Positions 5,909 to 62,624 of a stretch of DNA of 64,000 bases are shown here, piece after piece. Source of the DNA: Shinella sp. CPCC 101442 (GTDB lineage: Bacteria > Pseudomonadota > Alphaproteobacteria > Rhizobiales > Rhizobiaceae); the NCBI RefSeq assembly GCF_024704725.1, contig NZ_JALIQS010000002.1, positions 558,001 to 622,000 on the forward strand, in the 5' to 3' direction. Under the pieces are notes generated by a model. It saw only the letters and a list, made by a program, of their open reading frames with translations, did no database searches and had not been told where the DNA came from. Each line of letters begins with the position of its first letter. Positions within the stretch are counted from its first letter, which is position 1. The position numbers and the translations under genes are program-made.

Positions 5909-7393
5909 ATGAGCGGCGCAGCGACGATACATTTCGACAACAGTTATGCGCGCCTGCCGGACGCCTTTTTCGCGCCGGTCGATCCGACCCCGGTGGAAGC
6001 GCCGCGACTGATTGCGTTCAACAGGGCGCTCGCCGCAGAACTCGGCCTCGACGCCGATGCGCTGGAGCGCCACGGTGCGGCCTATTTCTCCGGCAACACG
6101 CCGCTGCCCGGCTCGTTGCCGCTCGCCATGGCCTATGCCGGCCACCAGTTCGGCCAGTTCGTGCCGCGGCTTGGCGACGGGCGGGCGATCCTGATCGGCG
6201 AGGTGATCGACCGCGCGGGAAAACGGCGCGACATCCAGCTCAAGGGCGCCGGCCAGACACCCTATTCGCGCCGTGGCGACGGGCGCGCGGCGCTCGGGCC
6301 CGTGCTGCGCGAATACATCATCAGCGAGGCCATGCATGCGCTCGGAATTCCGACGACGCGCGCGCTGGCGGCCGTCACCACCGGCCAGCCGGTCTATCGC
6401 GACCGGGTGCTGCCCGGCGCCGTCTTCACGCGCGTCGCGGCCAGCCACATCCGTGTCGGCACTTTCCAGTTCTTTGCCGCGCGCGGCGAGACGGACAACA
6501 TCCGCATCCTCGCCGACCACGTCATCGAGCGGCACTACCCGGAGCTGAAAGACGTCGAAAAACCCTATCTGGCACTGCTCGACGCGGTAGCGGAGCGGCA
6601 GGCCGCGCTGATCGCAAAATGGCTCGGCGTCGGCTTCATCCACGGCGTGATGAACACCGACAACATGACGATCTCGGGCGAGACCATCGACTTCGGCCCC
6701 TGCGCCTTCATGGACCGATACGATCCGCGCACCGTCTATTCCTCCATCGACCAGCACGGGCGCTACGCCTTCGGCAACCAGCCTGGCATTGGACAGTGGA
6801 ACATCGCGCGCCTTGCCGAGGCCCTGCTGCCGATCCTCGACGAAAACGAGGACAAGGCGGTGGAAGCGGCGAACGAAGCCGTCGCCCGCTTCATGGACCG
6901 TTTCCAGGCCCATTGGAAAATCGTCATCCGCGCCAAGCTCAGCCTCGGCGAGGACGAACGGGACGGCGATCAGGGCCTCATTCGCGACCTGCTCGTCACG
7001 CTCTACGAGCAGAAGGCCGATTATACCCTGACGTTCCGGCGCCTTGCCGATGCCGCGGAGGATGCGCGCGCGGATGCCGCGCTCGGCGCGCTGCTGGAAG
7101 ACCCGGCCGCCCTCACCCCGTGGCTTTCCGTCTGGCGCGAACGGCTTTCGCAGGATGCGACGACGCCTTCGGCGCGTGCGCAAGCGATGCGCAAGGCCAA
7201 TCCCGCCTTCATCCCGCGCAACCACAAGGTGGACGAGGCCTTGACGGCGGCCGTCGACCACGGCGATTTTTCGCTGTTCGAGGCGCTGAACGACGTTCTT
7301 TCAAAGCCTTATACGGACCAGCCGGCCTTTGCCCCCTATGCCGAGCCGCCGAAGCCCGGCGAGGAAATCACGGCGACGTTCTGCGGCACCTGA
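5909..7393 (+). CDS. selO: Protein adenylyltransferase SelO (YdiU family)
   Basis: Pseudokinase-fold enzyme that transfers AMP from ATP to Ser/Thr/Tyr of target proteins; in other bacteria it is linked to redox stress. The protein of about 494 residues carries the family signatures: QLKGAGQTPYSRRGDGRAAL (nucleotide binding), AVTTGQPVYRD, FIHGVMNTDN (the equivalent of the catalytic loop) and the metal-binding IDFGPCAFMD. It ends FCGT, so the position that is selenocysteine in animals is Cys here, as is usual in bacteria. ATG at 5909 lies nine bases after CAGGGA; ATG at 5903 is also in frame but too close to it. The gene is separated from its neighbours by more than 50 bp. Confidence 0.95.
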   Translation: MSGAATIHFDNSYARLPDAFFAPVDPTPVEAPRLIAFNRALAAELGLDADALERHGAAYFSGNTPLPGSLPLAMAYAGHQFGQFVPRLGDGRAILIGEVIDRAGKRRDIQLKGAGQTPYSRRGDGRAALGPVLREYIISEAMHALGIPTTRALAAVTTGQPVYRDRVLPGAVFTRVAASHIRVGTFQFFAARGETDNIRILADHVIERHYPELKDVEKPYLALLDAVAERQAALIAKWLGVGFIHGVMNTDNMTISGETIDFGPCAFMDRYDPRTVYSSIDQHGRYAFGNQPGIGQWNIARLAEALLPILDENEDKAVEAANEAVARFMDRFQAHWKIVIRAKLSLGEDERDGDQGLIRDLLVTLYEQKADYTLTFRRLADAAEDARADAALGALLEDPAALTPWLSVWRERLSQDATTPSARAQAMRKANPAFIPRNHKVDEALTAAVDHGDFSLFEALNDVLSKPYTDQPAFAPYAEPPKPGEEITATFCGT

Positions 7394-60747: not shown

Positions 60748-61173
60748 ATGAGCGACGATAGAAAACAGCACACGGCGACCTGTCACTGCGGCACCGTCCG
60801 GTTCCGCGTGCGGCTAACGGACGGATTCAACACGATCCGCCGCTGCACCTGCTCCTATTGCCGCATGCGCGGGGCCATTGCCGCCTCCGCAGAACTTTCG
60901 GATATCGACTTCATGGAGGGCGAAGACAATCTGACGCTCTATCAATTCAACACGGGCACGGCGAAGCACTATTTCTGCAAGACCTGCGGCATCTATACCC
61001 ACCACCAGCGCCGTTCCAATCCGAACCAGTTCGGCATCAATATCGCCTGCATAGAGGGCGTCAGCCCCTTCGATTTCGCGACGGTGGAGGTCATGGACGG
61101 CGTTTCCCATCCCGCCGATTCCGGCGCAGGCCCCCAGGTCGCCGGTATCCTCCGGTTCGAGCCGGCGACCTGA
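60748..61173 (+). CDS. GFA family (glutathione-dependent formaldehyde-activating-like) protein
   Basis: A 141-residue small zinc-binding protein. Ligand Cys are visible in TATCHCGTVRFRV, CTCSYCRM and YFCKTCGIYTHH. The family binds glutathione-linked formaldehyde or related adducts, but substrate specificity is not known. GCGGAGAGCGG precedes ATG 60748. Confidence 0.88.
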   Translation: MSDDRKQHTATCHCGTVRFRVRLTDGFNTIRRCTCSYCRMRGAIAASAELSDIDFMEGEDNLTLYQFNTGTAKHYFCKTCGIYTHHQRRSNPNQFGINIACIEGVSPFDFATVEVMDGVSHPADSGAGPQVAGILRFEPAT

Positions 61174-62059: not shown

Positions 62060-62086
62060 GGTCACACTCCTTCGCTCCGTGGCGTC
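62060..62086 (+). promoter_or_regulatory. ECF41-type promoter for the decarboxylase gene
   Basis: GGTCACA (62060-62066), 16 bp, CGTC (62083-62086). It differs from the ECF41 consensus TGTCACA-N16-CGTC, as I recall it, only at the first base. It overlaps the sigma gene's Shine-Dalgarno region and points toward the gene at 62166. Confidence 0.6.
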
Positions 62087-62094
62087 AAGGCCAT

Positions 62095-62121
62095 GACGAA
62101 CGAAGCCGCACCGGTGTGACA
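62095..62121 (-). promoter_or_regulatory. ECF41-type promoter for the sigma factor gene
   Basis: On the minus strand TGTCACA (62121-62115), 16 bp, CGTC (62098-62095): an exact match. A transcript would start near 62088 and reach the ATG at 62058 after about 30 bases, fitting self-activation. Confidence 0.7.
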
Positions 62122-62165: not shown

Positions 62166-62624
62166 ATGCAATCCCGTATGACCAATATCGTTACCGTCCT
62201 CCCGGACGTCATGAAGGCCATGCAGGCGCTTCAGGGCGCCGCACAAAAAACCGGCCTGCCGGAAAAGACCGCCCACCTCGTGCATCTGCGCGCCAGCCAG
62301 ATCAATGGCTGCGGCTTCTGCGTCGATCTGCACCCGCGCATGATGAAGAAGGCCGGCGAGAGCGACCGGCGCATCCTCTCCGTCGCCGCCTGGCGCGAGG
62401 CGCCGTTCTATACGGATGACGAGCGCGCGGCGCTGGCGCTGACCGAGGCCCTGACCCGCATCGCCGACCGCGAGGAGCCGGTTCCGGACACGATCTGGAA
62501 CGAGGCCGCCCGCCACTTCGACGAAAAGACGCTTGCCGCGCTCGTCGTGGAGATCGCGGCGATCAATGTGTGGAACCGGTTCAACGTGGCGACGCGGCAG
62601 GTTGCCGGCGAGTGGAACCCGTAA
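62166..62624 (+). CDS. AhpD-like carboxymuconolactone decarboxylase family protein
   Basis: A 152-residue AhpD-like protein with the CxxC-His motif in RASQINGCGFCVDLHPRM. It is the typical partner of ECF41-type sigma factors. It could act as a peroxidase partner or decarboxylase. CAAGGAG precedes ATG 62166. It begins after the sigma-dependent promoter at 62060, so it is probably its target. Confidence 0.92.
   Translation: MQSRMTNIVTVLPDVMKAMQALQGAAQKTGLPEKTAHLVHLRASQINGCGFCVDLHPRMMKKAGESDRRILSVAAWREAPFYTDDERAALALTEALTRIADREEPVPDTIWNEAARHFDEKTLAALVVEIAAINVWNRFNVATRQVAGEWNP

Follow-up and report, generated by a model that had tools for sequence, protein, structure and literature searches.

Interlocked ECF41-type promoters form a putative symmetric bidirectional promoter between a SnoaL-type ECF sigma factor gene and a CMD-domain gene in Shinella

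Introduction

Bidirectional promoters have been described in Escherichia coli, where, in the part of the account by Warman et al. (2026, PMC12825309) on which we draw, RNA polymerase docks exclusively in one direction or the other and the divergent transcript starts are most commonly 18 bp apart, with distances of 10 and 23 bp also common. For ECF41 sigma factors, the sections of Wecke et al. (2012, PMC3426412) used here report 55 loci with divergent sigma factor and COE genes (<ECF< >COE>) and place the promoter motif before 36 of the ECF genes and 41 of the COE genes, often before both. In its main text a word search turned up no mention of a palindrome or of symmetry, and "overlap" is used there for two coding regions only. 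At the Sinorhizobium meliloti locus SMb20029-rpoE9, which encodes a canonical ECF41, the excerpts cited give a mapped transcript start 9 nt after the motif (PMC3616915), and in the SMb20029 sequence as printed the final G lies nine bases after CGTC (PMC6180224); we take this G to be the transcript start. For HrpL of Pseudomonas syringae, the portion of PMC5263251 considered here describes an effect of the bound holoenzyme on the sigma gene.

A search of the literature, mostly at the level of titles and abstracts, recognised no symmetric ECF promoter of the kind described below. Our analysis concerns a stretch of 64,000 nucleotides from Shinella sp. CPCC 101442 (here called the window), near the end of which an ECF sigma factor gene and a CMD/AhpD-type gene diverge from a short intergenic region.

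Results

Genes and promoter elements at the locus

The genes and elements of the locus are listed in Table 1. The sigma factor has a SnoaL_2 match which is below the Pfam cut-off (E 0.00024, 22.1 bits, cut-off 27), and its best alignment among solved structures is to M. tuberculosis SigJ (E 2.2e-40). It also missed the cut-offs of two NCBIfam models which we take to stand for ECF41, namely SigX4 (TIGR02957; 204.6 bits, cut-off 323.25) and SigJ (NF007214; 235 bits, cut-off 271). The CMD/AhpD-type gene encodes a CxxC motif (NGCGFC). On its other side the sigma gene stands tail to tail with a gene of the glutathione-dependent formaldehyde-activating (GFA) family (60748-61173).

Table 1 Features of the sigma factor/CMD locus, in window coordinates.
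Feature	Position	Strand	Basis or remark
SnoaL-type ECF sigma factor gene, 287 aa	61195..62058	-	Pfam Sigma70_r2 50.2 bits, Sigma70_r4_2 38.1
-35 GGTCACA, CMD-ward promoter	62060..62066	+	one change from the consensus; conserved
Likely Shine-Dalgarno AAGGAG of the sigma gene	62067..62072	-	from sequence; within the CMD promoter spacer
-10 CGTC, CMD-ward promoter	62083..62086	+	opposite strand GACG = predicted sigma transcript +1..+4
Predicted sigma transcript start, 28-nt leader	62086	-	same inference as for the CMD start, other strand
8-bp centre AAGGCCAT between the two -10 elements	62087..62094		from sequence
Predicted CMD transcript start, 71-nt leader	62095	+	mapped S. meliloti start and position 8-9 preference
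-10 CGTC, sigma-ward promoter	62095..62098	-	opposite strand GACG = predicted CMD transcript +1..+4
-35 TGTCACA, sigma-ward promoter	62115..62121	-	exact match
CMD/AhpD-type gene	62166..62624	+	Pfam CMD 73.4 bits; ahpD_dom 47.4 bits, over cut-off

Two promoters of the ECF41 type (TGTCACA-N16-CGTC) are interlocked within the 62 bp between these genes (62060-62121), with the -35 boxes outermost, the -10 boxes facing each other and 8 bp between the -10s. The sigma-ward site, TGTCACACCGGTGCGGCTTCGTTCGTC (minus strand, 62121-62095), is exact, and the CMD-ward site, GGTCACACTCCTTCGCTCCGTGGCGTC (plus strand, 62060-62086), has a single change at its first base; the spacer is 16 bp in both. A preliminary description of this DNA had reported the pattern on both strands, once exact and once with one change, and this was accurate. 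The likely Shine-Dalgarno sequence of the sigma gene is separated from the start codon by 8 nt, and the CMD-ward -35 falls within these.

There was no excess of the motif in the window: with 2 changes or fewer it matched 15 times, compared with 13.7 ± 3.5 in shuffled sequence. As this count is at chance level we rejected it as evidence, which must therefore come from the position of the sites and from related loci. A search of the Shinella genome for the face-to-face pair, with the spacers fixed and a gap of 0-30, gave a single occurrence. With spacers of 15-17 allowed, the genome has four single exact sites, including the sigma-ward site of the window; another precedes a CMD gene which is followed by a canonical ECF41 gene (locus L003), and the open reading frame lists around the remaining two (L001 and L004) contained no sigma or CMD frame.

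Conservation of the module in the order and family

We call a sigma factor window-type when it resembles the window sigma more closely than canonical ECF41. Loci in the order (Rhizobiales) and family (Rhizobiaceae) samples were drawn by protein search, so that gap and spacer lengths were free to vary. A face-to-face pair with a gap of 8 was found at 43 of the 44 window-type sigma loci of the two samples, which bears out the earlier proposal that ECF41-type promoters face each other here. The order sample comprised 297 genomes, 55 of them with a sigma match at E 1e-35; 12 of the 30 loci from the initial search were window-type and the 33 fetched later were all canonical. Eleven of these 12 had the face-to-face pair at gap 8, and at the twelfth (L015) the CMD and sigma genes run in the same direction and there is no pair. 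The family sample comprised 394 genomes, 39 with a sigma match at E 1e-50. Here 32 of 33 further loci could be classed and all 32 carried the gap-8 pair, as did the unclassed one (L175); the class table holds no proteins shorter than 200 residues, which removed L175 and L237, and also 6 of the 107 scan loci described below.

With at most 1 change allowed per site, the order sample had 11 pairs, 9 of them at gap 8, and the family sample had 31, of which 30 were at gap 8; all 39 gap-8 pairs had 16/16 spacers. Two of the other three pairs share one -35 box (apparent gaps -47 and -48) and in the third, from the canonical locus L017, the sites stand back to back. Because TGTCACA is one base off its own reverse complement, a single box can be read both ways, and pairs with apparent gaps of about -45 to -51 were taken as artefacts and omitted from the final classes. 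Among the order and family loci the reversed motif gave 0 sites and the scrambled motif 2 single sites and 0 pairs.

We aligned 42 distinct modules from the two samples, leaving out one duplicate module and L015. The sigma-ward GTCAC was present in 42 of 42, and in the CMD-ward arm GTGAC (each base in 41-42 of 42), the 16-bp spacer and GACG are maintained. The conservation extends by one base into the centre from either side: A follows CGTC in 42/42 and T precedes GACG in 41/42, and the same bases were found at 79% and 82%, respectively, of the matches listed from the genome scan (n = 102), neither of them being part of the scan pattern. At L016 (the same position as L187) and L100 the module is intact and the sigma match is partial or in two frames; the sigma gene may be broken at these loci.

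The two arms are not equivalent. The first base of the -35 is T in 32/42 sigma-ward sites vs 7/42 CMD-ward sites (30 have G), which hints at a promoter bias toward the sigma gene. The sigma-ward site outscores the CMD-ward site in 41/42 modules on a crude matrix which includes the spacer columns. GATG directly follows the module in 32/42, and the CMD-ward -35 may start with G because it lies between the Shine-Dalgarno sequence and the ATG, with GATG following. These asymmetries, together with the position of the outward -35 in the ribosome-binding region, could also mean that the sigma-ward promoter alone works, the outward arm being kept for the Shine-Dalgarno-to-start gap and for the initiator overlap considered below. 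However, the outward arm retains GTGAC, a 16-bp spacer and GACG, which should be beyond the needs of a ribosome site or an initiator, and a CMD gene diverges at 53 of the 107 listed scan loci with a sigma gene; we regard a one-way promoter as improbable. It is more improbable still that the inverted repeat is the operator of a dimeric repressor or activator. The repeat does form a long imperfect palindrome, but its arms are 48 bp apart, each arm is paired with a -10 at the spacing of an ECF41 promoter, and single copies of the motif precede CMD or sigma genes elsewhere.

Distribution of the module across phyla

A genome scan with both 16-bp spacers fixed and a free centre gap of 0-30, which is informative on the gap and not on spacer length, found at least 119 loci. 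Among the 119 matches listed, the gap was 8 in 109, 9 in 3 and 13 in 2, with gaps of 7, 11, 12, 24 and 30 found once each. A window-type sigma gene lay within 600 bp of the module, pointing away from it, at 107 of the matches listed, and at these the gap was 8 in 102, 9 in 3, 11 in 1 and 12 in 1. These 107 listed loci belong to at least nine phylum-level groups: Actinomycetota (n = 66), Pseudomonadota (n = 29), Acidobacteriota (n = 4), Myxococcota (n = 2), Chloroflexota (n = 2), Armatimonadota (n = 1), Cyanobacteriota (n = 1), candidate division FCPU426 (n = 1) and Nitrospirota (n = 1, gap 12). The best named sigma relative among the matches listed was from Shinella lacus (511 bits, against 605 for the self match; L087).

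The divergent partner was a CMD gene at 53 of the 107 listed loci with a sigma gene, and the 48 other listed partners which were scanned included NAD_binding_10 (n = 18), NmrA (n = 18, which may overlap with the former), PNPOx_N (n = 5) and Glyoxalase (n = 5). It should be noted that the partner was picked mechanically as the nearest long open frame, so these counts are approximate, and that 6 of the 107 listed loci gave none.

No recognised sigma gene was found at 12 of the 119 matches listed. Four of these (L044, L078, L084 and L146) lie within 200 bp of the end of the locus and one (L089) contains masked letters. At L065 and L066 a gap-8 module is flanked by a CMD gene and lacks a recognised sigma gene beside it; on the non-CMD side L066 has a small membrane protein, presumably DoxX-like. 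The remaining five (L042, L045, L071, L099 and L129, with gaps of 30, 24, 13, 13 and 7) are probably chance matches. Genes were inspected at L065, L066, L084 and L089. L071, from Streptomyces atratus, is a 67-bp near-perfect inverted repeat (6210-6276) with no sigma gene adjoining.

We also searched 398 Pseudomonadota genomes with a looser pattern (GTCAC arms). Matches were found in 13 of the 398, with a gap of 8 in 11 and gaps of 7 and 22 in the others, and a reversed control pattern matched in 1 genome of the same set. Ten of the 11 gap-8 matches were already in the earlier samples; the eleventh, at L303, combines a window-type sigma with a CMD gene. There were 0 matches to the module pattern in viral contigs, and spread of the module by viruses was rejected on this count.

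Limits of the layout in Actinomycetota and at canonical ECF41 loci

In a sample of 246 Actinomycetota genomes (51 with a match at E 1e-40; 81 of 82 match rows fetched), 53 of the 81 fetched loci were window-type and just 13 of these 53 had sites face to face, with a gap of 8 in 5, 9 in 7 and 4 in 1. Of the others, 7 had sites back to back, 10 had the sigma-ward site only, 4 had the outward site only, and 19 of the 53 had no site at the threshold used. The layout is thus near universal in the order and not so in Actinomycetota.

When exact GTCAC and CGTC were required, the face-to-face layout was found in 86 of 103 distinct promoters at window-type loci and in 0 of 45 at canonical ECF41 loci. 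Two divergent loci of canonical ECF41, L017 and L269 (1-1444), have a pair of ECF41-type sites in the back-to-back arrangement. In the Kribbella locus L269 about 10 bp separate the -35 boxes, and the partner gene encodes a small membrane protein.

The 8-bp gap and the initiator

We examined 62 distinct single ECF41-type promoters near CMD or sigma starts for an initiator, counting them without regard to relatedness. In 39 of 62, positions 8-9 after CGTC are a pyrimidine and then G, against 26 of 62 for the next best of 12 other offsets, and a pyrimidine-purine step stands at these positions in 49 of 62, against 33 for the next best offset. The pyrimidine-G step was present at positions 8-9 in 31 of 45 canonical loci and in 8 of 17 window-type loci without a partner site.

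A gap of 8 places the G of the opposing GACG at the ninth base, and the eighth base is T in 41 of 42 modules. Since the opposing G thereby falls on the favoured position, each -10 would be the initiator of the other direction, and we propose that this overlap is why the gap is nearly always 8 and sometimes 9; in the gap-9 modules TGAC is shifted one base further on. The literature searched yielded no description of a reason for the near-fixed 8-bp spacing, and the -10/initiator overlap is the likely one.

Both promoters could also be real and their gap of 8 reflect only descent from one ancestral module, without functional need. This would fit with the module being carried by one sigma clade and being similar over its whole length within the order. 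Against it, the spacer letters of gap-8 listed scan loci whose sigmas are <45% identical agree at 35% (overall composition would give 27% and column composition 43%), so that the sequence has drifted considerably, and the gap is still 8 in 102 of the 107 listed. Other face-to-face gaps are few and mostly 9, a quick tree of unassessed support requires 9 switches between a gap of 8 and another face-to-face gap, and single promoters show the very initiator that the overlap would serve. Ancestry without a need for the gap is unlikely, and shared ancestry and functional need may both contribute.

Class of the sigma factor and the likely user of the module

The window sigma lacks the WLPEP motif of the sigma2-sigma4 linker, and the preliminary description was right that this fused sigma factor is without the ECF41 linker motif. 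WLPEP was found in 1 of 198 window-type proteins vs 77 of 79 canonical ones. DGGGK, which we take to be a motif of the ECF41 C-terminal extension, was present in 0 of 198 window-type vs 62 of 79 canonical proteins, and NPDKL in 0 of 198 vs 66 of 79, with patterns which allow a few variants in either case. NPDKL is a motif of the same extension in the part of PMC7730460 cited here. The locus does have other ECF41 features: in the window these are the TGTCACA-N16-CGTC promoter and the neighbouring CMD gene, and elsewhere the module has CMD, NAD_binding_10/NmrA and PNPOx_N partners, as in the ECF41 neighbour set of CMD, oxidoreductase and epimerase genes. With the ECF41 motifs absent and the NCBIfam cut-offs missed, the window sigma should not be filed as ECF41 by class; its gene lies at ECF41-type promoters. 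Further SnoaL groups among ECF sigma factors are ECF56, ECF205, ECF294 and ECF295.

The Shinella genome also encodes a canonical ECF41 with WLPEP, DGGGK and NPDKL (L003, C4:255171-258197). Its gene lies downstream of a CMD gene which has this promoter motif as well. Cross-talk of this ECF41 with the window module is possible, and one might go further and suppose that the module is served by such a sigma factor elsewhere in the genome, not by the adjacent one. We searched 30 of the 45 genomes with a window-type sigma in the order and family samples, using the ECF41 of the window genome as query (E 1e-30). In 18 of these 30 the only match was the window-type sigma, and all 18 have the gap-8 module. 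This makes service by a distant canonical ECF41 highly improbable and the adjacent window-type sigma the likely user of the module.

Discussion

The symmetric pair of promoter sequences is real and conserved, and most likely works as one two-way promoter. Our preferred reading, to which we give a probability of roughly three in four, is that of a symmetric bidirectional promoter at which one ECF sigma factor would have two exclusive docking orientations over the same 62 bp. RNA polymerase with the adjacent sigma would dock in either of two opposite orientations, one leading to the sigma mRNA (positive feedback) and the other to the CMD mRNA (output). The CGTCA of each -10 would form, on the opposite strand, the initiator of the other promoter (T-1 G+1 A+2 C+3 G+4), and the two directions would share one melted stretch of about 16 bp with starts about 9 bp apart. 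Because both polymerases need the same DNA, docking should be exclusive. Sequence comparison shows the layout and its conservation, the narrow gap and the preference of single promoters for the initiator; we infer the use of both directions, their use by the adjacent sigma, the exclusive docking and the sigma-ward bias.

The predicted RNAs would diverge from the shared centre without overlap, each crossing the elements of the other promoter on leaving, which makes exclusive docking likelier than collision. Head-on collision or overlap of antisense leaders, which we also considered, is unexpected because the predicted starts at 62086 and 62095 diverge. The preliminary description had each RNA passing through the other promoter, and this stands for the promoter elements and needs amending for the transcripts, which with starts 9 nt after CGTC would not overlap. 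It had further suggested a self-activating switch with built-in interference. Self-activation of the sigma gene is likely, judging from the conserved sigma-ward site and from the 18 of 30 genomes without a match to a canonical ECF41; interference between the two promoters is possible, the geometry favouring exclusive docking, and the bistability of a switch is unsupported.

A wider proposal is that the module marks a self-controlling class of ECF sigma factors, with one symmetric promoter in which each -10 is the initiator of the other direction, a choice between feedback and output, and near-exact retention in several phyla; to this we give a little better than even odds. If true, it would provide a compact (62 bp), self-regulating bidirectional promoter which is widespread enough for genetics and structural work, as well as a small building block for synthetic circuits, with feedback and output competing for a single site, and the initiator overlap would give a reason for the near-fixed spacing.

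Compared with known systems, as far as the parts of the sources cited here describe them, the module shares with ECF41 loci the TGTCACA-N16-CGTC motif and neighbours of the COE set, but ECF41 has the WLPEP motif (PMC3426412), which the window sigma does not. The S. meliloti RpoE9 (ECF41)/SMb20029 pair has the same promoter motif and a CMD target; it differs in that the CMD and sigma genes there are probably one operon with one promoter (PMC6180224, PMC3616915). HrpL of P. syringae is likewise an ECF sigma whose gene diverges from a target; in contrast, hrpL is driven by sigma-54 and repressed by occlusion, not self-activated (PMC5263251). With the bidirectional promoters of E. coli (PMC12825309) the module has in common pseudo-symmetric DNA, close divergent starts and exclusive docking, the last two being suggested for the module by its sequence geometry. 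Unlike them, it has an ECF sigma as its probable user and recurs across phyla, each of its strands carries a complete -35 and -10, the two -10s are distinct and nearly constant in spacing, and one of its directions is the sigma factor's own gene. The module would add a variant to the known bacterial bidirectional promoters, one built for an alternative sigma factor.
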